NCBI GenBank assembly: GCA_014376935.1
Contig: JACMQO010000043.1
Coordinates: 1 to 45,336 of the forward strand
Reading direction: 5' to 3'
DNA: 45,336 nucleotides
Source: Bdellovibrio sp.
GTDB taxonomy: Bacteria > Bdellovibrionota > Bdellovibrionia > Bdellovibrionales > Bdellovibrionaceae
Positions 11,642-45,222 of this stretch are shown here, piece by piece (position 1 is the stretch's first letter; every line of letters begins with the position of its first letter). A program made the position numbers and the translations under genes. The notes under the pieces were generated by a model, which was not told the origin of the DNA, did no database searches, and worked only from the letters and a program-made list of their open reading frames with translations.

Positions 11642-12535
11642 ATGAAAAGCATGACAGGTTATGGAATAGCACAAGTTCAAGGGACCGATCTAACAATCGA
11701 AGTTAGTTTTCGCGCGGTGAATGGGCGTTACTTAGAAACGCGTTTTCACACGCCACGTCTTTATTACTCTTTTGAAAGTGAACTGAAAAAGAAATTATCG
11801 TCTGTGATATTGCGCGGAACCGTTGATGTTTACGTTTCGCGAAAAATGAAATCGTCGGCGGCTTCGTCGCGCGTTGTTGGTAACAGTAAATTAGCGTTAG
11901 AATACCTTAAGGTTTTTAAAAAATTATCAACCGACCTTCGTTTGAAAGATCCTGTGCGCTTAGAGCAAATTGCCAAGATGCCAGACGTCATTCACGTTGA
12001 AGATGTGGATACGATCAACGCCAACGAAATCACGATGTTAAAAAAAGCTTTCGATGCGGCCTTGAAAAAAATCGACATTGAAAGACAGCGTGAAGGTCAG
12101 GCGTTAAAAAAAGATTTGATTAAAAATTTAAAGGACTTACAAAAATACGTTTTAAGAATTTCAAAATTACGTGATGAAGCCAATAAAATTTTGCAAGAGC
12201 GTTTTGAAGCCAAGATCAGAGCGCGATTGGCCAAAGATGTTGCCGGAGCTACGGCCGTAGATTCGCAAAGAATTTCGCAAGAAATCGTGATTCAATTAGA
12301 AAAAGCAGATATCAACGAAGAGATCACTCGGTTAGCAGAGCATTTAAAAAATTTCGAAAAGATCATCGAAGCTCCTGTTGTTGAAGGTAAAAAATTAGAC
12401 TTTTATACCCAAGAGCTTTTGCGTGAAGTAAATACGATTGGTTCGAAAAGTCAGGTCGCAGGTATCACTGAAGCCGTGGTTGAATCAAAAACACTTATCG
12501 AGCGTATCCGCGAACAGGTGCAAAATATCGAATGA
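11642..12535 (+). CDS. yicC: YicC-family endoribonuclease
   Basis: A 297-residue protein beginning with the family hallmark MKSMTGYG and continuing with EVSFRAVNGRYLETRF. The C-terminal DUF1732-type region ends in KLDFYTQELLREVNTIGSKS and [18 protein letters not shown], both strongly conserved. YicC proteins have been reported as RNA-cleaving enzymes in other bacteria. The in-frame open stretch reaches 11540, but the MTGYG start and the purine-rich AGAGAGA ahead of it fix the ATG at 11642. It overlaps gmk by four bases (ATGA). Confidence 0.95.
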   Translation: MKSMTGYGIAQVQGTDLTIEVSFRAVNGRYLETRFHTPRLYYSFESELKKKLSSVILRGTVDVYVSRKMKSSAASSRVVGNSKLALEYLKVFKKLSTDLRLKDPVRLEQIAKMPDVIHVEDVDTINANEITMLKKAFDAALKKIDIERQREGQALKKDLIKNLKDLQKYVLRISKLRDEANKILQERFEAKIRARLAKDVAGATAVDSQRISQEIVIQLEKADINEEITRLAEHLKNFEKIIEAPVVEGKKLDFYTQELLREVNTIGSKSQVAGITEAVVESKTLIERIREQVQNIE

Positions 12536-13089
12536 AGACACGTATGATTATTGTGGCCGCTCCGAGCGGTGCAGGTAAAAGTAGTTTCGTTGAAAAGTTG
12601 GCGGTTGAAGACGCTCGGATTCATGACGTCATCACATATACGACGCGTCCGATGCGCCATCACGAAAGTGAAGGTAAGCCTTATTTCTTTATTTCGATTG
12701 AAGAGTTTAACAAAAAAGTTAAAGAAGATTTCTTTATCGAATGGGCCCAAGTTCATACGAATTTTTACGGAACATCCTACGAGCAAATCAATATGGCCTG
12801 GGCGCGCGAAAAATGCGTGATTATGGATATCGACATTCAAGGTGTCATGACGTTTAAAGATAAATACCCTGATGCCAAAACCGTCTTTATTTTACCCCCT
12901 TCGATCGAAGAATTGCGTCGCCGCGTCATTAAGCGAGACGGTGCCCCACCTCCGGATTTAGATATCCGTATGAAGAATGCTGAAAAAGAGATCCTCAAAG
13001 CGGGTGAGTTCGATGTGCAGCTTGTGAACGACGATTTTGAGCGCTCATACGCTGAATTTAAAAAAATGGTTGAGATTTGGCTCACTTAG
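12532..13089 (+). CDS. gmk: Guanylate kinase
   Basis: A 185-residue protein with the P-loop [16 protein letters not shown] at the N-terminus and the GMP-binding segment [18 protein letters not shown] (the TTRxxRxxE hallmark). The IMDIDIQGV strand and the conserved RRRVIKRD lid follow. It phosphorylates GMP to GDP with ATP, and the product feeds both RNA synthesis and the (p)ppGpp pathway encoded just downstream. Translational coupling to yicC through an ATGA overlap is visible. Confidence 0.97.
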
Positions 13090-13144
13090 GGCTATTATCA
13101 GTGACTCATCTTTAAAGATATTCCACTCTCATTGGAGGTTTTCG

Positions 13145-13384
13145 ATGGCTCGCGTAACAGTTGAAGATTGTATGGATAAAGTTCCTAATCGTTTTGCATT
13201 AGTTTTATTAGTCGCTAAGCGCGCTAAACAACTTTTAAAGGGCAGTGATTGCACTGTTGCAATGAGAAACAACAAGTACATCGTGAACTCACTTCGCGAA
13301 GTGGCTATGGGCAACGTTGGTTTTGAATCTAAAATCGATCCAATCACGGCTCAAACTGATATGTTAGCAGACTTAAACAAGTAA
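13145..13384 (+). CDS. rpoZ: RNA polymerase omega subunit
   Basis: A 79-residue protein, [20 protein letters not shown] at the N-terminus, which is the canonical omega signature, followed by the [10 protein letters not shown] helix. Omega binds the beta-prime subunit and helps form the ppGpp-binding site in other bacteria. The open frame reaches back to 13037, but the conserved N-terminus and TTGGAGG ahead of the ATG at 13145 set the start. gmk-rpoZ-rel order is typical. Confidence 0.97.
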
Positions 13385-13453
13385 GCTTAAGCAAGTAGAT
13401 CTTTAACTCGACACAGCTCTTGGTCTGTAATTTAAAACTATTTTCATCTTTAT

Positions 13454-13488
13454 AAAGAACCCGCTTAATAAGCGGGTTCTTTTGTTTT
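13454..13488 (+). terminator. Rho-independent terminator after rpoZ
   Basis: AAAGAACCCGCTT (13454-13466) and AAGCGGGTTCTTT (13470-13482) form a 13-bp perfect stem with a three-base loop, followed by TGTTTT. It ends the yicC-gmk-rpoZ transcript and lies only 12 bases before the rel start codon. Confidence 0.93.
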
Positions 13489-13499
13489 AAAATAACATT

Positions 13500-15722
13500 A
13501 TGTTAGAAATCTCGACAGACGATAGATTACCGCAAAAGCCGATCAAAACTATCGAAGAACTGTGCGAAAAAATAAAAGCCTACCATCCCGATGCACCTTT
13601 GCAATTTATCATCAAAGCGTATCAGTTTTCAGAAAAAGCTCATGAAGGGCAGTTACGTCGCTCGGGCGAACCATATATTTCTCATCCTTTAAATGTGGCC
13701 GGCATTTTGGCTGATTTGCAATTAGACTTAGATACGATCGCAACGGGGTTGTTGCATGACACCGTCGAAGACACCGATGCGACATTAGAAGTTATTAAAA
13801 AAGAATTCGGTGAAACGGTCTCTGCCCTTGTTGATGGCGTTACTAAAATCGGACTTATGAATTTTAGAAATAGCTTTGATAAGCAGGGCGAAAATATTCG
13901 TAAGATGATTGTCGCCATGGGCAAAGACGTGCGTGTCGTTCTGGTGAAGCTAGCTGACCGACTTCACAATATGCGTACGCTGAATCATATGCCTTACGAA
14001 AAACAGGAACGTATCGCGCAAGAAACTCTAGAGATCTATTGTCCGCTAGCGGGCCGTATCGGTATCAGTGCTTTAAAGATTGAATTAGAAGATCTTTGTT
14101 TTAAATACTCAAGGCCAGATAAGTTTTACGAATTAAAACAAATGATCGAAAAGACCGAGAATGAGACTAAGCGCTATATCGATGAAGTGCGCCGGGCGAT
14201 CGGCGAAGTTTTAACGAAATCGACAATTAAAAAATATAAAGTTTACGGACGCGCAAAACATTTATGGTCGGTTTACCGTAAGATGACAGCCCGTAACTTA
14301 ACGTATGATCAAATTTATGACGTCTTAGCGTTTCGTATTACCGTCAGTTCAGTCGTTGAGTGTTACGAAGTGCTGGGTTACATCCATTCGATCTGGAAGC
14401 CGATTCCGGGGCGATTTAAAGACTTCATCGCGATGCCAAAATCAAATAATTATCAATCACTGCATACCACGGTGATTGGCCCCGGTGGTGATCGTATCGA
14501 AGTGCAAATTCGTACTGAAGACATGCACTTGATTGCCGAAAAAGGAATCGCGGCCCACTGGAATTATAAAGAACGCGGTAAATTAGACGACACTGAATTA
14601 CAAAAAACAAATTGGATGCGCGATTTAGTTTCTTTGAACAAATCAGGCTCTGCCGACGAGTTTTTAGATCACGTCAAAACTAATTTGATGGAGCATGACA
14701 TTTACGTATTTACCCCAAAGGGTGACGTGCAAGAGCTTCCAGAAAATGCCACGCCGGTCGATCTTGCTTACGCGATTCATACGTCGTTAGGAAATATGTC
14801 GACGGGTGCGCGTGTGAACGGAAAGATGGTTCCATTAAAGCATAAATTAATTAACGGCGACCGCGTTGAAATTATCACGTCTAAAACGCAAACGCCTTCG
14901 AAAGATTGGCTGAAGTTTGTTGTTACTAATAAAGCTAAATCTAAAATCAGACAGTTCGTTAAAGAAGAACAACGCCGAAACTCGGTGGCGATTGGTAAAG
15001 ACCTTGTTGAAAAAGAATTTCGTAAATTTGGGTTGGGGGCTGCTAAATATTTAAAGGGTCCTGACTTTGATAATTACATGCGTGAAAGTGGTATCACCGA
15101 CGTCGAAGAACTTTTCGCGCGCGTGGGCTACGGAAAGTTTGAACCCAAACATCTGATTGATAATTTAAGTCCGGACGCTATTCAAAAAGAAGTCGAAAAA
15201 AGCGAACAGCCCGAAGCCATTACTTTCTTAGAGAAAGTTGTCAAATCAGCCAAGGCCAAACTTAAGAAATCAAATTCTTTAGTGATCGTCGACGGCATGG
15301 ATGATGTCTTGGTGCATTTTGCAAAGTGCTGCGGTCCGATTCCGGGTGACGCGATCACGGGTTTTATTAGCCGTGGTAAAGGAATCATCATCCATCGTGC
15401 CGATTGCCGTAAGGTGCTAGAGATGGATCAAATGCGTCGGGTTGACGTATCGTGGACTTCGAAATCAGCGGCTGACGGTCAAGAACGTCAAGTTAAACTG
15501 GAAGTCATCAGCCAAGACGTTCCGGGATTATTAAAACTGATGTCTGAGACGTTCTCGGTGCAAGGAATTAATATTGAATCGGCGCAGATTCGAACGACCC
15601 GGGATAAAAAAGCAGTTTGTCAGTTTGAAATCGCTGTCAAAGACGTTGCGCAATTATCGTTAGCTATTTTGGCGCTTCAGAAAATCAAAGGCATTATTAA
15701 TGTTCAGCGTGTGATGGGTTAG
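13500..15722 (+). CDS. rel: Bifunctional (p)ppGpp synthetase/hydrolase (Rel/SpoT type)
   Basis: A 740-residue long RSH enzyme. The N-terminal HD hydrolase domain is intact: SHPLNVAG near residue 61 and LLHDTVEDT with HDxxED at 86-91. The synthetase domain follows (RFKDFIAMPKSNNYQSLHT near 320 and EVQIRT). A TGS domain sits at about 395-460, a helical/zinc-finger segment contains KCCGPIPGD, and a C-terminal ACT domain starts near 665. With both catalytic halves intact it probably makes and removes the alarmone in the stringent response. The ATG at 13500 has no Shine-Dalgarno sequence; a TAAAAT box lies six bases before it. Confidence 0.97.
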   Translation: MLEISTDDRLPQKPIKTIEELCEKIKAYHPDAPLQFIIKAYQFSEKAHEGQLRRSGEPYISHPLNVAGILADLQLDLDTIATGLLHDTVEDTDATLEVIKKEFGETVSALVDGVTKIGLMNFRNSFDKQGENIRKMIVAMGKDVRVVLVKLADRLHNMRTLNHMPYEKQERIAQETLEIYCPLAGRIGISALKIELEDLCFKYSRPDKFYELKQMIEKTENETKRYIDEVRRAIGEVLTKSTIKKYKVYGRAKHLWSVYRKMTARNLTYDQIYDVLAFRITVSSVVECYEVLGYIHSIWKPIPGRFKDFIAMPKSNNYQSLHTTVIGPGGDRIEVQIRTEDMHLIAEKGIAAHWNYKERGKLDDTELQKTNWMRDLVSLNKSGSADEFLDHVKTNLMEHDIYVFTPKGDVQELPENATPVDLAYAIHTSLGNMSTGARVNGKMVPLKHKLINGDRVEIITSKTQTPSKDWLKFVVTNKAKSKIRQFVKEEQRRNSVAIGKDLVEKEFRKFGLGAAKYLKGPDFDNYMRESGITDVEELFARVGYGKFEPKHLIDNLSPDAIQKEVEKSEQPEAITFLEKVVKSAKAKLKKSNSLVIVDGMDDVLVHFAKCCGPIPGDAITGFISRGKGIIIHRADCRKVLEMDQMRRVDVSWTSKSAADGQERQVKLEVISQDVPGLLKLMSETFSVQGINIESAQIRTTRDKKAVCQFEIAVKDVAQLSLAILALQKIKGIINVQRVMG

Positions 15723-34185: not shown

Positions 34186-34836
34186 ATGAAATCACTTATT
34201 TTTGCTATGACATTCGCTTCAGCTGTTTTCGCTCAAGCGGCATTATTAACTTTCGAACCAGGTAACTTGCAAATCGAAGGTGTTACTTTAAATAAGACAG
34301 CAACTGTAACGGCACAAGATGGAACTCTGTCGGCGTTAAAAATGGACTTATTGGGTGCGGGTCTTCGTGCAAAAACAGTTTTATTCGTAGCTGCTAAAGT
34401 TTACGTTTTAGAATTATTTGCAGACAACAAAGGCGCATTTACTAGAAACGATAAAGACGCTGTATCTTCAATCGTGAACAATTCAAACTTAGTTGGATTG
34501 AAAATTTCTATGTTAAGAACGGTTGATGCGGCGACTTTAGCAACTTCATTCCGTGAAGCGATTGAAGCTAACGGTTATGTTATCGATGCTGAGCTTACAA
34601 ATTTATTATCGATCGTTGCAAAAGCGGCTGACGGAACAAACGGTAAATCAATCTCTATGTTCATGAAAAAAGATGGAACAAACGTAAATGTGTATTACGA
34701 AGATACAACGGGCGCCGTTAAATCATTCGTAGGATCGCAATCAGTTATGACAAAAATCTTATCAATTTGGTTAGGTAAATCAGCTGATAAAGGTTTAGAA
34801 AAACTAAAAGCGCAATTATTAAACTCAGTTTACTAG
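34186..34836 (+). CDS. Exported chalcone-isomerase-like protein
   Basis: A 216-residue protein with a signal peptide (LIFAMTFASAVFAQA, cleavage near residue 19). The core matches the bacterial chalcone-isomerase-like fold: a leading IEGVTLNKTATV, LLGAGLRAKTVLFVAAKVYV (compare the family 'G.G.R.k....KVYv..LY'), and ISMLRTVDAATLATSFREAI. In bacteria these proteins are not thought to make flavonoids and may bind fatty-acid-like ligands; the role here is unknown. It has a strong TAAGGAG ribosome binding site and a terminator just downstream. The A-ending codons of the gene suggest good expression. Confidence 0.8.
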   Translation: MKSLIFAMTFASAVFAQAALLTFEPGNLQIEGVTLNKTATVTAQDGTLSALKMDLLGAGLRAKTVLFVAAKVYVLELFADNKGAFTRNDKDAVSSIVNNSNLVGLKISMLRTVDAATLATSFREAIEANGYVIDAELTNLLSIVAKAADGTNGKSISMFMKKDGTNVNVYYEDTTGAVKSFVGSQSVMTKILSIWLGKSADKGLEKLKAQLLNSVY

Positions 34837-34858
34837 TTTTTGGCTTGTCTCATTCACA

Positions 34859-34892
34859 AAAGCTTTCTGTAAAAACAGAAGGCTTTTTTTTT
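34859..34892 (+). terminator. Rho-independent terminator after the chalcone-isomerase-like gene
   Basis: AAAGCTTTCTGT and ACAGAAGGCTTT (34859-34870, 34875-34886) pair over 12 bases with one T-G wobble and an AAAA loop, and run into a T tract ending at 34892. The following gene's AAGGAG starts at the next base. Confidence 0.92.
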
Positions 34893-34903
34893 AAGGAGTT
34901 CTT

Positions 34904-35800
34904 ATGAATAAATTTATGAATTTAATGATCTTAGTTGTAGCCGCGTTCGCTTTTTCTTCATGTTCAAAGATCGATAGCGTCATGGATAAGGCGGAAACGA
35001 TTCCAGGAAAAATGGATAGCCTAAATACCAATATGGATGAATTGAAGCGTTTAACCATCGTTGGCGAAATGAAAAAAGAATTAGAAGACACGAAGAACTA
35101 CAAAGTTCTAGCGCCAGTGCCTTTTGATTTAAATGCAGCCGCTAAAAAAGCCGCAGAAAATTTCACAATCGATGAAGTTGTTCCGTGGATTTATAACTTA
35201 TTGCAAAAAATTAACGAAGCTAAGTTTGAAGATAACTTCGGACGTGCGATCAATCCGAATGATCCTCAAGCAGTTGAATTTGAACAAAATAAATTAGGAA
35301 CAATGTCGGCCATTTCAGCCGTTTGTGGATTTTTACCAGAGTCGATGATTAACCAAATGTTAGTCGCAATTGATAATGGTGATGAAGATGCCGCGACAAT
35401 GGTTTCTATGTTTGCGATGCGCGCTTATTTTATTAATAACGTATTGATGAAAGAAAAGTATGCTCCGTCAAAATTGACTTCGATTGGCGCCGTCGAAAAA
35501 GCTATTTTCTACAACAAGCAAGTTGAAAACCTATTACGTCTTCCGTACGCGGATAAAATTAACGTCACGGTGAATGGTTTCGAATTAAATACCGATTTTA
35601 ATGCGGGTATGTCATATGGTTTAGATTTTAATGCGGCTAAAGTAAACTGGAGTGCGATTTCAAACGGCATGGAAAGCTATTTAAAAGTAAATCAATACTC
35701 GACAGATCCAAATCAAGTGAAAAATCAGTTAGCTCGCCAAACAGCCGCTCTTGCTGAAATTCAGCAAGGTCAAGCCGCTTGGGCCAACGTTAAACCGTAA
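34904..35800 (+). CDS. Putative lipoprotein
   Basis: A 298-residue protein with a lipoprotein-type signal (LVVAAFAFSSC, Cys at residue 20; Phe at -3 is a weaker lipobox). The mature part begins with a coiled-coil-prone stretch (KIDSVMDKAETIPGKMDSLN) and continues as mostly helical sequence with many Asn, Asp and Ala. I recognise no family. The AAGGAG ribosome binding site lies directly after the T tract of the preceding terminator, so translation here depends on read-through or a promoter inside that region. Confidence 0.7.
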   Translation: MNKFMNLMILVVAAFAFSSCSKIDSVMDKAETIPGKMDSLNTNMDELKRLTIVGEMKKELEDTKNYKVLAPVPFDLNAAAKKAAENFTIDEVVPWIYNLLQKINEAKFEDNFGRAINPNDPQAVEFEQNKLGTMSAISAVCGFLPESMINQMLVAIDNGDEDAATMVSMFAMRAYFINNVLMKEKYAPSKLTSIGAVEKAIFYNKQVENLLRLPYADKINVTVNGFELNTDFNAGMSYGLDFNAAKVNWSAISNGMESYLKVNQYSTDPNQVKNQLARQTAALAEIQQGQAAWANVKP

Positions 35801-35802
35801 GT

Positions 35803-36402
35803 TTAATCTAACTTCACTCCGACACCCAAATTTTTCCAAAAATCTAAAGTTTTGTTTGAAAAATTTGGGTGCAGTTCCATCGGTAAGATTGAACTGTAGC
35901 CAAGGCGATCGTGACAGATCGTTCCCACTAAATCTTCCATTTGATTTTTTTCATCCAAAGTCACAAGCATCATCGCGCTGTCCACGTCGACGTAACATAA
36001 TGATTCAAAGTCAGCTTTGATCTGATCTTTCTTTTCAGGCGTAAAAAAGTTTAAGAACGTATCATACGAGATCGTCATAAATTTTTTCTCGCGAAAAAAT
36101 TTAGAAACTAAAACAGACTCTACAAACATCGGGTCAGTTTTAAAGATCGATTTAATGTCGGTCACCATCGTGCGTAGCAGCTGTGACTTAGCGCTCGCGC
36201 AGTCTTCGCAGATTGTTTCCTGCAAAATGCATCCGTTTGCGATATTACACGTATCTTGGCAAACGGTTTCTCCGTTCAGGCACGTCATGATCAATCGCTT
36301 ATCAAGTTCGTTCGATTGATTGATGGCGATCTGGCTGCGCAGTTGGTAGCTGAAGGCGGGTAAAGATGAAAATACAAAGATTAAAGCAATTAGATGTTTC
36401 AT
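35803..36402 (-). CDS. Exported cysteine-rich protein of unknown function
   Basis: A protein of about 199 residues with a signal peptide (LIALIFVFSSLPAFS, cleavage near residue 18). Six cysteines are packed between about residues 40 and 72 (CLNGETVCQDTCNIANGC, then CEDC), and two more come later (near SLCYVD and GTICHD); disulphides are likely. I start it at the ATG at 36402, which overlaps the upstream stop by four bases (ATGA) with GAGG upstream; the open frame to 36423 is not needed. It is convergent with the lipoprotein gene, only two bases apart. Its 3' end contains a 14-bp inverted repeat. Confidence 0.7.
   Translation of the reverse strand: MKHLIALIFVFSSLPAFSYQLRSQIAINQSNELDKRLIMTCLNGETVCQDTCNIANGCILQETICEDCASAKSQLLRTMVTDIKSIFKTDPMFVESVLVSKFFREKKFMTISYDTFLNFFTPEKKDQIKADFESLCYVDVDSAMMLVTLDEKNQMEDLVGTICHDRLGYSSILPMELHPNFSNKTLDFWKNLGVGVKLD
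35823..35871. repeat. 14-bp perfect inverted repeat inside the end of a coding region
   Basis: CACCCAAATTTTTC (35823-35836) and GAAAAATTTGGGTG (35858-35871) are perfect arms around 21 bases. It lies at the 3' end of the minus-strand gene and just past the stop of the convergent plus-strand lipoprotein, where it could end or slow transcription from either side. Confidence 0.6.
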
Positions 36403-38945
36403 TTTACAACCTCTTTTTGGCATTTTTGAACAAAGCGTGTCGAATACGATAGATAGAAATTACTTCCGTTTCCTGAACATCGAGTTGCTAATTTAATTTC
36501 TTCATTGCAGCCTTTTACTTTGATGTAAGACATATCGTATTCGTCTTGAGTCGACTCCATACTTTTAGTCATTTCAATTTTTTCGACCTCAAGTCCTGAC
36601 TTTTGTTCGAACTCGCGAACAACTAAAGCCTCACACATATTCGATTGGCAGCGTAAACCTTGTGTTAATAGCGGAACGCAGGCTTCGGGAATGCTGTGAT
36701 ATTTTTTGTAAGCATCTGTTAAGTACTGTTGGTTAATATTGTACTGACGTGGATTGATCGTATCGTCATTTTTAACCGTATAATAACGACTTAAACTAGA
36801 AGCTAGGCGTAAGATAAATCTTAGCGGAGCAAATGACTTGTCAGTCACAAAAGTCGCCGCCTGTTGAAAGTTAATCGAACACTGGCCACATAAAGACGAA
36901 TCTCCAGAAGCAGTCTTTTTAAATGAATCAACCTGTCCGGTCGGTGAATCGATGCGATTCGTTTTATTGCTATGGCATGCATTCACAGTTAAACCGCTAA
37001 ACAAGTAGGGCGTTTGGGCGTCGCTATTATCGTTGCCGGCAATTTGTGAAATATTAATACTACATGGAACATTTAAGAATGAACCAAAGTTTAAAGTTAA
37101 ACTTTTACGTACTTGTTTTTGATCAAAGCCCATATCAAATTTAACTTGTCCATTTTCGATCAGCTTATTGATTGATGTCGGTTGACCTTTCGGTAAGTAA
37201 TTAACATCTAAATAGATCGGTAAACTAGTCCATCCAAATAAAAGTGAACTGCCAACATCAGCTAACAATTTTTTACTATTTAAACGGCTGGCTTCCCAAG
37301 GATCATAAAGACCGCAGGCTACTTTTTCGGCCCGCGCGTTAAAGATCGGAGCCGACGCTAAAGATGTTTTAAAGAAAGTTTTAGAGTGAAGTAAAACTTT
37401 ATTTAATGTCACCATGCCTTCGATCACTTTGCGTGTGCAGTCGATCGAGTCTGAACATTGGCCGTTCACGTAATTTAAATTCGTGGGTGTTACTTGCGCC
37501 AGCTGCGGTGTTTGTTCTGTTTCGAAATCAATATAGTCTTTTAAAATTTTGTAACGACTTAAATAGCTTTTGTACCAAGGACGGTAGTTCAGCCAATTTT
37601 CTTTAACGGCGTCTTTCGAAGTTAAACCTTTATCGAATTCGCCACACGAAGTGATCAAAGAAGGTGATAACTTTTCGTACACGCTCATCATTTCTTCGAC
37701 GGTTAGGCCGTATTTTAAAAATTGGTTTAAGCTGGCACCCTGTTGTTTCATAAAATCTAAATCAAATTTAAATATGCTTAAAGGACGTTCTTGACCAATC
37801 AGGCGCGCTTCGACGCACATGTAGTATAGATTTTCTGAATTTGCCTTATCCGCAAAGGCTGTCTTTAAATCAGCCTTTAACTGCGCCACGCCTTTTTTAG
37901 CTAAAATCGAACTAAATAAAACATTTGTTTGGTTTAATTTATCAAGGTTAGCTTGTGTAAAACCTAAATACGATTTTTGAAAGCTTCTGATCCATTCATT
38001 TTCGCCGGCTTTCATCGCCATTTGTTCCTGAACTTTTTGATCGATGTCATCGTTGTTATCGATCACGTTGTCTTTCATTTCTAAAGTGGAACTTGTTAAG
38101 TCTAATTTTTTACGATCTGTTGTAAATAATGAACGAAGTTCGGTCGAGCTTAAAAAGTCTGAGCTGCATTCTGGTCTAGAAATACTTTTACAACCATTTG
38201 ATAGAATCACCATTTGCTCTTCGATCGGGGCCGCTAAGAAGACGGCGCGGTAAGGGCCTTCGGCAGGATCATTCATTTTTACATTACGCCATGCCCAGCT
38301 TAAATAGATTTTAAATGAGGTCCAAAAATCGTAGCCTTTTTGTTCCCATAATTTTTGATTCTTAATTTTTAAGTCGTAGTTAAAAACAGGATAAAAATCG
38401 GCATCGGCTTTAATCGCGTCCACGCCGCATCCTTTGACACGCGTTGATCCGGCGATAAACTGTTTCGCAAGCTCTTCTAATGTGGATTGGTTAATTCCAC
38501 GAATAAATAGGTGAGAGTAGTAGGTATTGATATCATTGACTTGATAGCACGCGATGGAATCGATCGTTTGTAAGCTGGCCTTATTGGTTAGTGCGTTCCA
38601 ATTTCTTTTAATCTCGGACGGAGCGTTCTTATTGATCGGCGCAAGCTCTCCGGAATCTAAACCACGGATGATTTGTTCGGCTAAGGTGTTAATTTTTAAT
38701 TTATAAAGACGATTTCCTTCTTTGATAAAAGAAGTTGGCTCTTGGCCGATTTGGGGGGCCAACTGTTTTAACATCTGAGCGATATCTCTGAATGTTAAAG
38801 CCAAAAAGACCGAGTTCGTCGGCTTTGACATATCAGCAGCACACTGAGGAGCATTGCTAAACTGCAACCAATCCTCTTGCGCAGAAAAAGCTGACGAAGA
38901 GAAAATCAAAGCGAATGTACATAGGGTGTATTTTAGTTTAGTCAT
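36399..38945 (-). CDS. Large exported protein of unknown function
   Basis: A protein of about 848 residues with an N-terminal signal peptide (YTLCTFALIFSSSAFS, cleavage near residue 22). No family is recognised. The mature protein has many cysteines spread along it, including CGQC in the C-terminal third and CQSNMC near the end, suggesting several disulphides. The N-terminal half is helical (FRDIAQMLKQLAPQIG) and the C-terminal third contains strand-like stretches. I start at the ATG at 38945; an open frame to 38963 exists. It overlaps the next minus-strand gene by four bases, so the pair is co-translated. It is divergent from the plus-strand group starting at 39197. Confidence 0.7.
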   Translation of the reverse strand: MTKLKYTLCTFALIFSSSAFSAQEDWLQFSNAPQCAADMSKPTNSVFLALTFRDIAQMLKQLAPQIGQEPTSFIKEGNRLYKLKINTLAEQIIRGLDSGELAPINKNAPSEIKRNWNALTNKASLQTIDSIACYQVNDINTYYSHLFIRGINQSTLEELAKQFIAGSTRVKGCGVDAIKADADFYPVFNYDLKIKNQKLWEQKGYDFWTSFKIYLSWAWRNVKMNDPAEGPYRAVFLAAPIEEQMVILSNGCKSISRPECSSDFLSSTELRSLFTTDRKKLDLTSSTLEMKDNVIDNNDDIDQKVQEQMAMKAGENEWIRSFQKSYLGFTQANLDKLNQTNVLFSSILAKKGVAQLKADLKTAFADKANSENLYYMCVEARLIGQERPLSIFKFDLDFMKQQGASLNQFLKYGLTVEEMMSVYEKLSPSLITSCGEFDKGLTSKDAVKENWLNYRPWYKSYLSRYKILKDYIDFETEQTPQLAQVTPTNLNYVNGQCSDSIDCTRKVIEGMVTLNKVLLHSKTFFKTSLASAPIFNARAEKVACGLYDPWEASRLNSKKLLADVGSSLLFGWTSLPIYLDVNYLPKGQPTSINKLIENGQVKFDMGFDQKQVRKSLTLNFGSFLNVPCSINISQIAGNDNSDAQTPYLFSGLTVNACHSNKTNRIDSPTGQVDSFKKTASGDSSLCGQCSINFQQAATFVTDKSFAPLRFILRLASSLSRYYTVKNDDTINPRQYNINQQYLTDAYKKYHSIPEACVPLLTQGLRCQSNMCEALVVREFEQKSGLEVEKIEMTKSMESTQDEYDMSYIKVKGCNEEIKLATRCSGNGSNFYLSYSTRFVQKCQKEVVK

Positions 38946-39079
38946 ATAAGTATTACACATCAAAATTCACGCCTGTTTTCTGTTTCAGAACAAGGCAGAC
39001 CGCCCATTCAGCGCAAATATAGTGTTGTTAAAGAATTAATAAGATTTGGATACGCAAAACGCTCAAAGGTGTCGAAGTG

Positions 39080-39109
39080 TTAGTCACTAAACGATAATGG
39101 TATTATACT
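39080..39109 (+). promoter_or_regulatory. Putative promoter for the exported-protein group
   Basis: TATACT at 39104-39109, inside the TATTATACT run, has TTAGTC at 39080-39085 with an 18-base spacer. It would drive the gene at 39197 with a leader of about 80 bases. The -35 match is poor; found by eye. Confidence 0.35.
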
Positions 39110-39146
39110 CATCAGATAAGATTTTTTAATATTGTTCACCAGATTT

Positions 39147-39165
39147 GTTCTATTTGTGATAGAAC
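39147..39165. repeat. Inverted repeat in the leader of the 39197 gene
   Basis: GTTCTAT and ATAGAAC (39147-39153, 39159-39165) are perfect 7-bp arms around a five-base loop, about 30 bases before the start codon. A hairpin or operator are both possible. Confidence 0.35.
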
Positions 39166-39196
39166 TGCAAAACCCAAAAAACACAGGAGAATGAAA

Positions 39197-39736
39197 ATGC
39201 TAAAAATTGCTTTAGTGGCCATCGTCATGACATCAAGCTTCGCTTTTGCTCAACAGAAATCTGATCTAGGTGAACTTGAAGTGGGAGCCGATGCTCAAAA
39301 TTCTTCAGCTTACTTAAGTCAAACCGATGCCGAAGTGATTGCCCATATCAATAAAGAAATTGCTCAAAAGTGTGACGACCATGGTTGTACATTTGTTTCT
39401 CGTGTTGATCAGAAAAAAGGTTGGACGATTACGTTCAATGCTGGAAACGGCCAATCAAATAATGCAAGCGGTTCGACATATTACATCGGTTCAGGAACAG
39501 CATCTCAAGGTAATCAAAACTACTACGGTGTTTCAATTTCTTATACGAACATGACTTGTACTTCTGACTTCAAAATTCAAGAAGACGATTTTACAAACAA
39601 CATTGGTCGTGCTTTGCAAGAGCGTGAAAATAACAGCGTTTTAAATATGAAGCCTTTATCAACAGATATGAAGTTCATCCAGTTGATCAAATTAGAAATT
39701 TATAAGCAATTAGCAGCTGGCGGATGTTTACGTTAA
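39197..39736 (+). CDS. Small exported protein of unknown function
   Basis: About 179 residues with a signal peptide (LKIALVAIVMTSSFAFA, cleavage near residue 18). The mature part has four cysteines: two close together (CDDHGC), one in NMTCTSD and one at the end (GGCLR). A Gly/Ser/Asn-rich middle (NGQSNNASGSTYYIGSGT) looks like a beta-turn-rich loop. I recognise no family. Two ATGs compete: the one at 39191 is only one base after AGGAG, while the one at 39197 is seven bases away and is preferred. It is the first of four exported-protein genes on this strand. Confidence 0.7.
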   Translation: MLKIALVAIVMTSSFAFAQQKSDLGELEVGADAQNSSAYLSQTDAEVIAHINKEIAQKCDDHGCTFVSRVDQKKGWTITFNAGNGQSNNASGSTYYIGSGTASQGNQNYYGVSISYTNMTCTSDFKIQEDDFTNNIGRALQERENNSVLNMKPLSTDMKFIQLIKLEIYKQLAAGGCLR

Positions 39737-39747
39737 TTTTAACGTAA
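39728..39747. repeat. 20-bp inverted repeat over the stop codon of the 39197 gene
   Basis: TTACGTTAA and TTAACGTAA are perfect 9-bp arms with a two-base spacer, covering the TAA stop at 39734-39736. It is AT-rich, lacks a T tract and is not a convincing terminator; it may protect the mRNA end. Confidence 0.4.
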
Positions 39748-39817
39748 GCTCCTTTGATTTAAATTTAATAAAACTAAAAACAAAACAACAACAACACACA
39801 CATAAGTAGGAGATTCT

Positions 39818-40873
39818 ATGAAGAACGTTTTCGCGACAGTATCTCGCGCTTTAGCAACTATTGCTATCGTCGTGACTGCAACTCAGGCCGTATCGGCTCT
39901 TGAGTACCGATTCAAATTTAAAGTCACAAGCTCAGGCCCTGACATGTATGCCTGTAATGCGGGAATGCGTACAACGCCGTTAAATTGCGACGTATGTTAT
40001 AAAGAAAACAGCGATGGAACTAAAACTCCAATCGATCGTCCAGGATCTTGCTCTTCAACGGCAACGAACTGTGGATCTCGTATTAAATGTGTAAGCCGTG
40101 GTGTTAACAACGGTGAATCTTACATGAATTATTTAACAGCTGGTAAACGTGGTTGGACTGACCATTCTCAAGCTCAAGGTCCAAGAACAACCATCAATAT
40201 TCGCAGTACTCCAACGACATTCCAACAAGTTGTTGCTGGTAACGTAGCTATGGATACTAAAATTGAAGACTTATTATTTGAATTGGGTAACGAAACTTAC
40301 TCGGCTCAATACTTCGTTGATATTTGTTACCGCGCTCCTCAGCACGAATACCGCGCTAACGGAATCGATGCGAACTACAACATCTTAGCTAACGTTGGTT
40401 CGACTGATTTCTTATCACAAGGTCAAACTAAAGGTGATAGCGACCGTTCTGGTTTACAAATGTTAAACAACGCCGATTTACAACGTTACACTCAACAAGC
40501 TGGCGTTAAAGTTCAGTCTTACGTTGTTTGTGATCTTCAAGGTCAAGGCGTTTTACAAAATGCGACAAACTCTTCTGGCGTTTACAACACATCTGAAAAT
40601 GAAGCTGACTTCGTTATCGGTGCTGACGGTCTTCCAGTAAGTGGTTTAAACGGAAGCTTCTTCAAAGCCTCTGATTTACGTTCTTTAACTGGCGACGCGA
40701 TCGATATGATCAGCACAAGCGTTTCAAACGCTAGATTCTGTAAAGTTCGTTATTTATTCACAGAAACAAAAGGTCTTTCTTGTAATGGTGGAGCTTCGGT
40801 ATTCCGTGATTGGACTCGTAAAGGCGCAGAAATGTGTACATTTACAGTTATTGACGAACCAGCTGCTGAGTAA
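39818..40873 (+). CDS. Exported cysteine-rich protein of unknown function
   Basis: A 351-residue protein with a signal peptide (IAIVVTATQAVSA, cleavage near residue 27). A compact cluster of six cysteines lies at about residues 46-92 (YACNAG, LNCDVC, GSCSST, TNCGS, IKCVSR), and four more follow in the remainder (near DICYRA, VVCDLQ, RFCKVR and LSCNGG, plus EMCTFT). I recognise no family. Codon choice (AAC, CGT, GGT-rich) looks like that of a highly expressed gene. A good TAGGAG ribosome binding site and a CAA-rich leader precede it; a strong terminator follows. Confidence 0.72.
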   Translation: MKNVFATVSRALATIAIVVTATQAVSALEYRFKFKVTSSGPDMYACNAGMRTTPLNCDVCYKENSDGTKTPIDRPGSCSSTATNCGSRIKCVSRGVNNGESYMNYLTAGKRGWTDHSQAQGPRTTINIRSTPTTFQQVVAGNVAMDTKIEDLLFELGNETYSAQYFVDICYRAPQHEYRANGIDANYNILANVGSTDFLSQGQTKGDSDRSGLQMLNNADLQRYTQQAGVKVQSYVVCDLQGQGVLQNATNSSGVYNTSENEADFVIGADGLPVSGLNGSFFKASDLRSLTGDAIDMISTSVSNARFCKVRYLFTETKGLSCNGGASVFRDWTRKGAEMCTFTVIDEPAAE

Positions 40874-40883
40874 TTGTTAAGTC

Positions 40884-40911
40884 AAAAGCCTTAAGTGTTC
40901 TTAAGGCTTTT
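40884..40911 (+). terminator. Rho-independent terminator after the cysteine-rich gene
   Basis: AAAAGCCTTAAG (40884-40895) and CTTAAGGCTTTT (40900-40911) are a perfect 12-bp stem with a TGTT loop, 11 bases after the stop. The next gene starts 32 bases on, so it may be partly leaky. Confidence 0.92.
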
Positions 40912-40942
40912 ACTCCTTAAACAGTCAAACATGAGGTCGATT

Positions 40943-42487
40943 ATGAAATGGTTTTTTACAACATTCGTTCTAACACCATCAGTGATTTTTGCCTGCGACA
41001 TGCAGCGTTCATTAAGTGAAACTCAGTTCACGATCGACCCCTCTACGAACAAAATGAAATTAGAAACACTCAGTGACAACACGAGAATTCAAGTTTCTAA
41101 ATGTACTCCCGATGAAAAATTTCTTTTAATTAATTTTAATTCTATATACTACCAAGATGATACCTCACGTATTGAATCTATTTCCGGTAACCTGATTCAA
41201 AAAGCTTCAAACTGTTCGATTCAATCAGAAACGCCAGCGCAAAAAATCGATGCTACTTTTTTGCAAACACTTGTGCAATCACGGCATAATTTTTTAAGAA
41301 AATGTGTGCGTTTAGCGATTGTTGATCAGACAGGACAAAAAATTACGACACATCCTCAATCGGCTTGTCAGCTTAAGGCGATTACTGCCGATGGTTCGAC
41401 GGTTGAAACAGACGGTGCTGGTTGTTTGATTGCGGTCAATCCCAATTCAAATATTGCGATGGAAGCCCGCTTAAATCCAGATTGTCTACAGTCTTCATTT
41501 TTATCATCAAACCAGATTCAAGCTCAAGACATTGAATCTGTGATTAAATTATGGCCCGTAGGATCTGAAGCCGGTAAGTTATCGGTTCAAAATCCGATCG
41601 GTTCACGTTACATTCGTCACACTATTTTACCAGCAAAAGATTTTATGCCCAGAACGGTTAAAGACGATCAAGATGATCTTCCGTATATCAGCGCGCTTTC
41701 AACGAACATCAGCGCGGGTCAAATCTCGATGTCATCAATGGGTAAAAATAAAGTTGTTATTCAGCCCACATTCTTCGTTGAAAATATCGCCAAAGAATAC
41801 TGTAAAGGCACCGAATGTGCCCGAGTGTCGGGTTACGTGGCCCCGATTGCAGGCCTTTTAACGTTATCAAAAATTAATTCTGTGAACGGCAAGAAAACAC
41901 AGATCGGAGAATGGCCACACGCTTTAAAAGTTCCTGCCAATTGGACGGGAATGGCTGAATTTAAAACTGAAAATAATTTAACAGGAATGTCTATGGGCGC
42001 TTTGACGGCCAATATAACGTTAACTCCTGGTGATGAATTCGTTTTGGAATCTAAATTCTTTGAACCGCGTTCGTATTTAGACGAGCTAAGTCTAACTCAG
42101 AATTTTTTCGACTTAAATAGCTCATTAGACGCCGAAGGTTCTAGCGAAGACGCTTTGCCGACGCTTCCTAAAGTAGGGCAGTTATTGCCATTACCAAAAA
42201 TGCCAACGTTACCTTCGGTGGGCCTTGGGCGGGCTGGTGTATTGGACTTTAGTGATCGTATGAATATGAAAAAAAACTGGTCGCAAAAATATGACCGTGT
42301 TTGTAATTCTCAAAATTTGAATTGCGTAAAGCTAAGCGGCTTCGGAACACCGTTTGTGACCTTAAAAGCAAAATTCAAAATTGGTCCCAATAAAGAAGTC
42401 ATCGCTGAACACGTAACAAAAAGTTCAGCGGCTTTTGAAAGTTACGATCAAGACGTGACATATTTTACGAAAAAGGTTTGTGAATAA
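40943..42487 (+). CDS. Exported protein of unknown function
   Basis: About 514 residues with a hydrophobic N-terminus (FFTTFVLTPSVIFAC) that could be an ordinary signal peptide or, with IFAC, a marginal lipobox. The mature protein has around a dozen cysteines in pairs (for example YCKGTEC and CNSQNLNC) and is predicted to be mostly beta. A Pro-rich segment (LPTLPKVGQLLPLPKMPTLP) sits near residue 410. No family is recognised. The ATG at 40943 is chosen because GAGG precedes it by six bases; the open frame to 40895 is not supported. The stop codon directly abuts the next start (TAAATG). Confidence 0.68.
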   Translation: MKWFFTTFVLTPSVIFACDMQRSLSETQFTIDPSTNKMKLETLSDNTRIQVSKCTPDEKFLLINFNSIYYQDDTSRIESISGNLIQKASNCSIQSETPAQKIDATFLQTLVQSRHNFLRKCVRLAIVDQTGQKITTHPQSACQLKAITADGSTVETDGAGCLIAVNPNSNIAMEARLNPDCLQSSFLSSNQIQAQDIESVIKLWPVGSEAGKLSVQNPIGSRYIRHTILPAKDFMPRTVKDDQDDLPYISALSTNISAGQISMSSMGKNKVVIQPTFFVENIAKEYCKGTECARVSGYVAPIAGLLTLSKINSVNGKKTQIGEWPHALKVPANWTGMAEFKTENNLTGMSMGALTANITLTPGDEFVLESKFFEPRSYLDELSLTQNFFDLNSSLDAEGSSEDALPTLPKVGQLLPLPKMPTLPSVGLGRAGVLDFSDRMNMKKNWSQKYDRVCNSQNLNCVKLSGFGTPFVTLKAKFKIGPNKEVIAEHVTKSSAAFESYDQDVTYFTKKVCE

Positions 42488-43654
42488 ATGCCGGTCCAGA
42501 TCTTAATAAAATTTTCTTTATTAGCGATTTTGACTTTGGGTTTACAGGCCCAGGCTAGTCTTTGGAAATCGCAAAATGCGTGGAATGAAGACTTTGAAAA
42601 AAAATATTCAGACTGGATCATAAGTTCCGTTCCATCGACTTTTTTTAAAGAGATCAATATAGCGACCGACTGCGCAGATGCACCCATCGTTACAAGGTGG
42701 GTTTTTGCGCGCGAGAATTCTTTGCCCGCAGCGGTTTCTTCAGGTTCGGGGCATATCATTTCTAATTTATCTGGGAATTGGGATTCGTACTCAATAGCGG
42801 CGAATTGGAAAGAGGATAAACGGTTTCTTAAGGCGATCGTTGACGTGATCAATTCAACAAATTCAAAAACTTTATATCAAGATACTTATCCGGTGCAGTT
42901 AAACAGTAAGTACCTGGTTCCGGGAACCTTGTTTATCAATGCAACCCAAACATCAGGTCACGCCGAATGGATTTCGAAGGTTTCATTCGACGGAATGCAG
43001 GCGCCGATCATGTTTAACTCTTCAACCGTTCCGCAGATCGTGCGTGATTTGTTAGTTTATCCCTTTATGAAAATCAAATGGCCGGTCAAAGGCGATAATG
43101 GTTTTGTTAAATTTCGCTGGGCCATTGAGTCGGGTGGATCGGTCAGTTTAAAAAGTGCGGCGTCGATGCCCGGATATAGTTTAGAGCAGTACGAACTTTC
43201 GAAAACACAAAAAATGGACTTCGATGACTTTGTAACCACGCGCTTGATCGGCCATGCGCTGGATGGAATTCATAAATTACAAATCTTAGCCAGTCATTTA
43301 ACCGAGCGTTTTGAAAACCGTGTTCCGGTTGTTGATGATGGTTTTAAAGTTTGCGGTGGCGGAAAGTGCGCTAAAGAGTCTTCGAAGTTTTACGATCACA
43401 GTACGTATTCGCGCGATGGTGCGATTATTTTTATCATTCAAGGTATCTTTGATCTTTTATATTCTGATCGCTACCTAAATGTGGATGATCAAACAGCGGG
43501 GCAAATGACTTTGTACTGGTCTCAGCTTCAAACGGACGTCACCGTCGATATTGAAGGCCGTCCCCATTCTTTGGGCGAGCTTGTTAGTATTTGGAATCAA
43601 GCCTTGTTCTCGTCTGACCCGAACGACAGCGTTCAAAAACGCTGGGGTTTTTAA
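42488..43654 (+). CDS. Exported protein, possible thiol hydrolase
   Basis: A 388-residue protein with a signal peptide (LIKFSLLAILTLGLQAQA, cleavage near residue 23). The segment TDCADAPIVTRWVFARE (Cys62) followed ~95 residues later by TSGHAEWISKVSF (His158) resembles the Cys-then-His spacing of transglutaminase-like or NlpC/P60-like hydrolases. The fold is not proven and I can name no family with certainty. A third polar residue is not clear. Two more cysteines occur late in the protein (KVCGGGKC). The start abuts the upstream stop, suggesting coupling; only a weak AAGG precedes it. Confidence 0.6.
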   Translation: MPVQILIKFSLLAILTLGLQAQASLWKSQNAWNEDFEKKYSDWIISSVPSTFFKEINIATDCADAPIVTRWVFARENSLPAAVSSGSGHIISNLSGNWDSYSIAANWKEDKRFLKAIVDVINSTNSKTLYQDTYPVQLNSKYLVPGTLFINATQTSGHAEWISKVSFDGMQAPIMFNSSTVPQIVRDLLVYPFMKIKWPVKGDNGFVKFRWAIESGGSVSLKSAASMPGYSLEQYELSKTQKMDFDDFVTTRLIGHALDGIHKLQILASHLTERFENRVPVVDDGFKVCGGGKCAKESSKFYDHSTYSRDGAIIFIIQGIFDLLYSDRYLNVDDQTAGQMTLYWSQLQTDVTVDIEGRPHSLGELVSIWNQALFSSDPNDSVQKRWGF

Positions 43655-43842: not shown

Positions 43843-45222
43843 ATGTCAGATAAGTTTCCTTCTAAAACGATGGTGATATTAAGTGGTGAAAATCGTGTTA
43901 CTGCCGCCGCCGAAACATTTCTAAAAAATAGAGGATGGCAGATCCATTCAACGTCAGATATTAAAGAAGCGTTGTCTTACGCGGCTGAAAACACTACGTC
44001 CTACTTGTTAATAAGTGTCGACCATCCAAGTTCAAAAATAACGATGGTTCCAAAGCTTTTTCAACAAACTCTACAAATCACCGTCATTGCTTTCATCGAA
44101 AAAAACTTACCTGAGTCTGAAGCTAAGTTAACTCAGTTTCATGCGAATTACCGCGTATCTAATCCGACGGGACCCGCGATTGAACGATGTATTCATAAAC
44201 ATCACCGAGAGCTAGAGCAAAAAGATAAAGAGACGGTCGTTAGGTCGAGCATTGACTCGGTTAAACAAGAAGATCAAATTCGCATTAAGTCCGGAGGCTC
44301 TTTAGAAGCAGATATTTACCGTTCGACCAATCAAACAGCGAAGGTAAATGTAAATATTCAAAAAGGTCATCGTGGAGAAATGCTGTCGAACCCCGAACAG
44401 TCAAAAAATTTAAAATCGGGCGCAGTCATTCAAAGTAATAATACAGGGAATATAAAAACTAGAAATTTCAACAATCCAGCCGCAAATGCCGATGCTCGTT
44501 CCGATCGACTTAAGTCAGACGACGAGACGAGTTTATTATCGACCGCCGTTAAAAAATCTTTGGCCGAGGCGAAACTTGTTGTTGGCAGTTCCGCCGAAGA
44601 GGCTGTGCGCAGCAGTCTTGATGATCCGAATGCGGTTTGTATGGTTGTCGATTCGCCTCGATTATCGGGCTATTTGGTGGCCACCCAAGTTGGAAACACG
44701 GTTCCTTCGCCCCAATTTAATACTATATTTCAAGAGAAGGTCGTTCAATTTTTAGCGGAAAAGGGCGAGCAGCTGGCCGAAAAAAGTGGTTATGATGTGC
44801 GGCTTAAAGAAGTTCATTTTGATAGCTGGGCAAAACAGGCCGCGCATTTCTTAGAGTGCTCTGCCTATAATGGAAAAGATATTTCGATCGCCTTTTTTCC
44901 AAGAAAAGACGTTAAAATAAAATTAGAAAATTCTGAAGTTCCAGAGATGGCCAAAGTAAAAATTGATGAGCTGCTGGGTGATCGGATCATCCGTTTTGAT
45001 TTATTCATCTTTTTAAAAGAAAATAATAAACTTATTCTTGTGACGGCCAAGGGGACTATTTTTCGACAAACCCAACGCACACGATTTATAGATCAAGGTC
45101 AAACGCATCTGCATGTTCGTAAGAACGAATTAAATCTTGTCGCTCAATATTTCGCTGAAGCGTATTTAAATGACCTGGTCGATACTTTTCAAAACCAGAT
45201 CAAATCAAGCCAAGCGGGCTGA
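43843..45222 (+). CDS. Protein with degenerate receiver-like N-terminal domain
   Basis: About 459 residues, cytosolic. Residues ~8-120 alternate strand and helix like a response-regulator receiver (MVILSGENRVTAAAETFLK, SYLLISVDHPSS, TVIAFIE), but the acidic pair after strand 1 is missing (SGEN) and the conserved Lys after strand 5 is replaced by Ser in RVSNPTGPAIE. The Asp in ISVDHPS sits where the phosphorylated Asp would be. Residues ~130-240 are polar and probably disordered. The C-terminal ~200 residues hold alternating helices and strands that I cannot name. The ATG at 43843 follows AAGGGAGG; the open frame to 43780 is rejected. Confidence 0.72.
   Translation: MSDKFPSKTMVILSGENRVTAAAETFLKNRGWQIHSTSDIKEALSYAAENTTSYLLISVDHPSSKITMVPKLFQQTLQITVIAFIEKNLPESEAKLTQFHANYRVSNPTGPAIERCIHKHHRELEQKDKETVVRSSIDSVKQEDQIRIKSGGSLEADIYRSTNQTAKVNVNIQKGHRGEMLSNPEQSKNLKSGAVIQSNNTGNIKTRNFNNPAANADARSDRLKSDDETSLLSTAVKKSLAEAKLVVGSSAEEAVRSSLDDPNAVCMVVDSPRLSGYLVATQVGNTVPSPQFNTIFQEKVVQFLAEKGEQLAEKSGYDVRLKEVHFDSWAKQAAHFLECSAYNGKDISIAFFPRKDVKIKLENSEVPEMAKVKIDELLGDRIIRFDLFIFLKENNKLILVTAKGTIFRQTQRTRFIDQGQTHLHVRKNELNLVAQYFAEAYLNDLVDTFQNQIKSSQAG

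Follow-up and report, generated by a model that had tools for sequence, protein, structure and literature searches.

The window analyzed here is the whole 45,336-nucleotide stretch of DNA from Bdellovibrio sp. (contig JACMQO010000043.1, GenBank assembly GCA_014376935.1), and its right-hand part contains six consecutive genes for exported proteins. We assigned the letters A and B to the two minus-strand genes and C, D, E, and F to the four plus-strand genes. An ORF check of the window sequence returned all six genes with the coordinates and strands given in the first-pass annotation, and the two stop/start couplings reported there, ATGA at 36399-36402 and TAAATG at 42485-42490, are both present. 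The genes and associated features are as follows.

35803-36402, minus strand: gene A, 199 aa, exported, eight invariant cysteines, ATGA overlap with gene B (ORF, family alignment, n = 25)
36399-38945, minus strand: gene B, approximately 848 aa, exported, 22 cysteines, marker gene of the module (alignment, n = 34; structural model)
38946-39190, no strand: divergent B/C intergenic region, 245 bp, presumed promoters (sequence)
39191-39736, plus strand: gene C, 181 aa, exported, four invariant cysteines (alignment, codon usage)
39726-39749, plus strand: intrinsic-terminator-like hairpin at the end of C (hairpin scan)
39818-40873, plus strand: gene D, 351 aa, exported, predicted all-beta, eight conserved cysteines, predicted major (abundant) subunit (codon usage, structural model)
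40884-40914, plus strand: strong intrinsic-terminator-like hairpin in the D/E gap, AAAAGCCTTAAG-TGTT-CTTAAGGCTTTT (folding)
40943-42487, plus strand: gene E, 514 aa, exported, 12 cysteines, two predicted Ig-like beta domains (structural model)
42488-43654, plus strand: gene F, 388 aa, exported, DCAD and His158 invariant and suggestive of a cysteine hydrolase, optional module member (alignment)

The refined starts of A and B lie at 36402 and 38945, respectively, and that of E is the ATG at 40943. Two alternative starts of gene B, a TTG at 38963 and an ATG at 38960, are less likely than 38945.

All six proteins had been described as carrying signal peptides, and signal peptide-like N-termini are indeed seen on each of them. 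Using a simple heuristic, 84-100% of the members of each family have such an N-terminus compared to 41% of neighboring ORFs; the heuristic overlooked the window copy of B, whose N-terminus is signal peptide-like by eye. Further membrane segments are few (16% of B members and 0-3% in the other families). The description of most of the proteins as rich in cysteine held for five of them, C only mildly so, and not for F. With the rest of the window as the expectation and a Poisson test, the observed versus expected cysteine counts are 9 versus 1.4 for A, 22 versus 5.6 for B, and 11 versus 2.3 for D (P 1e-5 to 1e-7), and 12 versus 3.4 for E (P 2e-4), with C mildly enriched (4 cysteines, P 0.03) and F at background (3 cysteines, P 0.5). 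Family alignments show that the cysteines of the five enriched proteins are mostly invariant in relatives; in family B, for example, 22 columns are invariant, the majority of them cysteine.

Profile searches agreed with the original impression that the proteins match no known family, as no Pfam or NCBIfam model scored above its cut-off for any of the six window proteins. For these proteins and their relatives together, nothing usable was retrieved from Pfam, NCBIfam, PHROGs, PADLOC, PDB sequence profiles, or Rfam. Pseudopilin, secretin, and ATPase families had no Pfam match among the six window proteins. A Pfam scan of 64 relatives yielded, besides one stray match, only DUF4846 below threshold in two proteins, of which one or both are F-type. 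The cluster itself encodes no usher, outer-membrane secretin, or lipoprotein anchor, nor does it contain an energy source.

We then compared gene neighborhoods across Bdellovibrionota, with relatives taken from whole genomes and named contigs. Here the conservation that the first-pass annotation had proposed to look for is clear: C, B, A, D, and E are co-located in approximately 40 distinct loci, mostly on a single strand, and the loci often add D' (a paralogue of D) and F, giving five to seven exported proteins. Two gene orders predominate: Bdellovibrio-like genomes have C-B-A-D-E-D'-F, and Bacteriovorax-like genomes have D-E-(D')-C-B-A-(F). Among 291 genomes of the phylum, B is present in 60, C in 61, and E in 61, with all three together in 59. 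Pairwise distances in the five families correlate with r of 0.55-0.92, values which include shared species history, and none of 499 permutations gave values as high. Families A through E are a conserved, co-inherited module without annotated relatives, which supports the earlier suggestion of an undescribed envelope or extracellular machine. Since five of the six families belong to such a module, the independent occurrence of the genes in unrelated contexts, which would have spoken against a common system, does not apply to A through E and was observed for F only.

The arrangement in two divergent groups is real in the window but is not found in most relatives, in which all genes run in the same direction. 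The window and its sister genome G009 are without D' and have B-A inverted, and a divergent layout is seen in part also in loci L102 and L103. Because the window and G009 share the inverted B-A while most relatives are co-directional, the divergent layout is a derived inversion of B-A.

Gene F is an optional member from a broader family, as it is more widespread than B (F is found in 28 of 60 relatives, B in 13) and also occurs within exported proteins of approximately 950-1000 aa. It is found outside the module both alone and as part of these large proteins, examples of which lie at 8067-10967 of L065, 11146-14007 of L066, 7422-10406 of L067, and 9080-12001 of L068. The alignment of the F family contains an invariant D61-C62-A63-D64 together with H158, and on the basis of these residues F may be a cysteine hydrolase. 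NlpC/P60 and CHAP gave no match for F, and the DUF4846 match in the F homologue of L086 (E 1e-4) is below the cut-off.

The distribution of the module is patchy, with two of the 10 listed genomes of the window's own genus carrying it. A scan of named genomes with two short B peptide patterns, which could miss rare occurrences elsewhere, recovered Bdellovibrionota or similar unclassified MAGs and nothing else; named carriers include Halobacteriovorax and Bacteriovorax. Bdellovibrio bacteriovorus HD100 (which we take genome G123 to be) has two loci, at 708.5-717.1 kb and 2835.5-2843.1 kb, in which D lies at 712.2-713.2 kb and 2838.0-2839.2 kb and C at 716.6-717.1 kb and 2842.6-2843.1 kb, respectively. 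B. bacteriovorus kdesi has three copies of B, two of them with full clusters. B, C, D, and E are all absent from G013 and from Pseudobdellovibrio exovorus JSS (presumably G002). Because the predator JSS and G013 are without these genes, the cluster is dispensable for predation as such. A complete genome of the Bdellovibrio family has a C homologue on its own, with neither B nor E (G149:C1:3206558-3206968), which is probably a decayed cluster. In one divergent lineage (L100, L108, and L111), several exported genes with CxxCH (cytochrome-like) motifs flank the cluster, and an extra gene of approximately 370 aa follows A, as it likewise does in L105 and L107.

The first-pass annotation also noted a type II secretion system (T2SS) operon near the cluster. 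In the window this operon does lie approximately 5 kb from the cluster, but the comparison does not support a general association: a secretin is located within 10 kb of the cluster in just four of 14 genomes (the window, G009, G025, and G043) and elsewhere in the other 10, HD100 included. The secretin positions in these 14 genomes rule out the T2SS operon as a general partner, and its proximity in the window is local synteny. Clustering of the flanking genes likewise revealed no recurrent accessory genes beside the clusters beyond lineage-level synteny. Between the T2SS operon and the cluster, the plus strand at 34186-35800 encodes two proteins, an exported one of 216 aa whose chalcone-isomerase-like match is weak and a putative lipoprotein of 298 aa. 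Both have homologues in G009 only among the compared loci.

These positions bear on the possibility that C, B, A, D, and E form a secreted disulfide-rich predation or digestion complex, released into prey through Sec plus T2SS or vesicles and acting by matrix binding or enzymatically, with F as a cysteine hydrolase. The signal peptides, the disulfide-type cysteines, the invariant Cys-His pair of F, and the T2SS near the cluster in the window would all suit such a complex. There is also a precedent in Bd1399, a secreted disulfide-locked beta-sandwich of the DUF4360 family with 168 residues and two disulfides (PDB 8OKH), which two screens implicate in predation by Bdellovibrio (PMC10792529). The cluster resembles Bd1399 in encoding exported disulfide-type, predicted beta proteins in related organisms; DUF4360 has no match in the window proteins, D, E, and C included, or in their relatives, and these gave no PDB sequence match. 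Nevertheless, we consider a predation complex unlikely, given that A through E match no enzyme family, that the secretin linkage extends to so few genomes, that F is optional, and that the cluster is missing from some predators.

To compare the proteins at the level of structure, we used AlphaFold2 models. The model of B, based on 34 sequences (pLDDT 70, pTM 0.66), is an alpha/beta structure without a beta-barrel. It had no Foldseek match at E <= 0.001, and the Z-scores of a second look reached 6.2, which is in the range of unrelated folds. D and E were modeled as one read-through chain (45 sequences, pLDDT 75), in which the linker of approximately 25 residues is artificial. D is predicted to be all-beta except for the signal peptide and short helices, and E is predicted to contain two Ig-like domains, with pLDDT mostly above 80 over E. 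The best second-look match for E was WxLIP (Z 9.4, 221 residues, 6.1 Å, two-domain, 10% identity), followed by common Ig-like domains at Z of approximately 7, among them CfaE at Z 7.0 and FimC at Z 6.8 (181 residues, 5.9 Å). Because this fold is widespread, these matches do not demonstrate homology of E to WxLIP, FimC, or CfaE, and the modeled likeness would represent a very common shared fold, short of homology. In the case of the Enterococcus WxLIP, the model of E aligns over two Ig-like domains, but WxLIP is a Gram-positive protein and no WxL partner is seen.

The FimC and CfaE alignments, weak as they are, raise the question of whether the cluster is a known secretion or pilus system that has diverged beyond the reach of sequence profiles. 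Chaperone-usher fimbriae such as type 1 and CFA/I would be similar in their workings, with an over-expressed major subunit, minor Ig-like proteins, and variable subunits beside a conserved assembly part. However, the cluster has no usher, PapD-family, or pilin matches and has many conserved cysteines. No usher (PF00577-type barrel) was found by Pfam in the window proteins and 64 relatives, nor is B modeled as a barrel. As for a PapD-like chaperone, E does have two predicted Ig-like domains, but its FimC Z-score is below the level that separates homologues and no chaperone Pfam model matches. F-type conjugation offers a second comparison, as TraN, TraU, TraW, and TraH are exported, cysteine-rich proteins of roughly the sizes found in the cluster, and the sizes and cysteine counts are reminiscent of TraN and TraU in particular. 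In contrast to an F-type T4SS, the module has no match to any Tra family, no transfer genes recur beside the clusters, and Pfam detected no usher, pilin, TraN, TraU, or TraH among 64 members. With no recurrent partner genes beyond local synteny either, descent from one of these systems appears improbable.

Codon usage, hairpins, and gene spacing single out gene D. Codon statistics were drawn from neighboring genes and ribosomal loci, and D, followed by C, has ribosomal-protein-like codon usage. For D, the z-score is 2.5 in the window, and in four genomes, each with its own ribosomal-locus reference, the gene is 2.5-6.0 s.d. above its neighbors; the corresponding values for C are 2.0 and 1.7-5.3 s.d. 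The remaining cluster genes in the four genomes are mostly near background, with the exception of the Bacteriovorax-type G066, in which all are raised. With averaged references, D has the highest value of its cluster in 35 of 39 cases, and C ranks first or second in 34. Terminator-like hairpins occur downstream of D in 14 of 41 clusters and of C in 9 of 46, but downstream of A, B, and D' in only 1 of 41, 1 of 43, and 1 of 21, respectively. Both hairpins, after C and after D, are present in the window, where the region 40865-40930 folds at -18.8 kcal/mol (z -4.2). A directly follows B in 41 clusters with a median overlap of -4, and the B-A and E-D' junctions are tight or overlapping, whereas D is set off by approximately 30 nt on each side. 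Sigma-70-like matches in the B/C intergenic region are weak and no more common than in shuffled sequences. Taken together, the codon, hairpin, and spacing pattern is the one expected of a major-subunit gene within an operon, and it predicts that D is abundant.

A further property of the module emerged from comparing close Bdellovibrio strains. At locus 2 of HD100 and Tiberius (the latter presumably G018), protein identity is approximately 94% for C and 93% for B but 56% for D, 43% for E, and 40% for D'. The DNA identity ends 135 nt into D and returns 74 nt past the end of D'; the flanks are 82-87% identical, and the stretch between the breaks retains no more than short patches of weaker similarity. 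Locus 1 of HD100 and kdesi provides an independent second case (C 93%, B 73%, and E 33%), in which the break lies approximately 131 nt into D and the block runs through F and the next small gene. The edge of the cassette thus falls just behind the D signal peptide. Because the identity breaks bracket D-E-D' between conserved flanks, these genes are apparently transferred as a unit, and the D-E-D'(-F) block is replaced between close Bdellovibrio strains as a sharply bounded cassette. In the majority of other strain pairs the identity does not jump, and D is there among the best-conserved proteins. Silent D cassettes elsewhere in the genome were searched for and none was found in 10 genomes. Such a swap would fit an exposed, co-adapted part under diversifying selection, and it also fits phage-receptor or toxin-like systems.

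The exchange also bears on a quite different reading, namely that the genes are a periplasmic stress or envelope-maintenance set, for redox or protein folding, rather than a surface structure. Although the cysteines are many and an ECF sigma factor is found near Bdellovibrio locus 1 and the G025 cluster, no thioredoxin-like or redox family was found in the window proteins and 64 relatives. A high expression signal and a strain-level replacement of D-E-D' would also be unusual for housekeeping periplasmic proteins, and we regard such a set as very unlikely.

The codon and hairpin pattern, the predicted beta folds, and the cassette replacement instead point to a surface structure, and the inheritance of the genes as a unit with a strain-swapped outer half argues for an abundant one. 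As such, our tentative reading, to which we give slightly less than an even chance, is that the cluster is one exported system building an abundant, disulfide-stabilized structure at the cell surface or beyond it. The conserved, slowly swapped base or assembly part would consist of C, B, and A. D would be the major subunit, made in excess by means of its optimized codons and the terminator behind it, while E, plus D' and F where present, would be minor subunits serving as chaperone, anchor, tip, or processing enzyme. D-E-D'(-F) would be the exposed, specificity-bearing block, which strains would exchange through homologous recombination in the conserved genes on either side, and disulfides would stabilize a polymer or coat of D-E-D'. 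The polymerization of D, the extracellular location, the functions of the individual proteins, and any role toward prey, phages, or surfaces are what we infer from these patterns. A more specific version, which is possible but doubtful, is a new class of surface appendage or sheath in Bdellovibrio-like predators, in which a disulfide-stitched D polymer would be built by a B-A-C base unrelated to ushers, type IV pili, or curli and the swapped D-E-D' cassette would serve prey or surface recognition or escape from phages.

Surface fibers are already known in B. bacteriovorus in the form of the MAT chimeric fibers for prey recognition, which are single self-assembling proteins (PMC10769870), whereas the cluster is a multi-gene module. 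The main text of the MAT fiber paper mentions neither operons nor the estimated cluster locus tags, and no description of the cluster was found in open-access main texts using HD100 locus tags, all of which except Bd0742, Bd0743, and Bd0745 were estimated from positions. The novelty of the module rests on having no family match and no description found, and not on a demonstrated mechanism. HD100 is the model predatory bacterium, and the module is compact and tractable there, with two HD100 loci, a predicted abundant subunit, and natural swapped alleles. If it does encode a surface polymer, that polymer would belong to a new assembly class and could mediate strain-specific interaction with prey or phages.

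Several neighbors of the clusters are worth recording. In the window, the plus-strand gene directly downstream of F (43843-45222) has a VpsR-type N-terminal domain just below the cut-off (PF20161, E 1.4e-4), and its product has no homologue in the other fetched loci. HD100 locus 1 has a dgcB-type FHA-GGDEF gene upstream of the cluster (L115, 108-1040, plus strand), the syntenic Tiberius locus 1 has an ECF sigma factor (L053, 4640-5260, plus strand), and the G025 cluster is adjoined by an ECF sigma factor with an NrsF-type anti-sigma factor (L052, 15331-16555). Because the FHA-GGDEF and ECF sigma neighbors agree with Bd0742 and Bd0743, they support our assignment of G123 to HD100. Bd0742 is dgcB, the loss of which abolishes predation (PMC6561027), and Bd0743 is an RpoE-like sigma factor (PMC3464611). 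Upstream of C at Bdellovibrio locus 2 lies a gene for an exported protein of approximately 1000 aa with long (GNN)n collagen-like repeats (PF01391), which is located at 12299-15391 on the minus strand of L116 and is found also in L055, L117, and L073.
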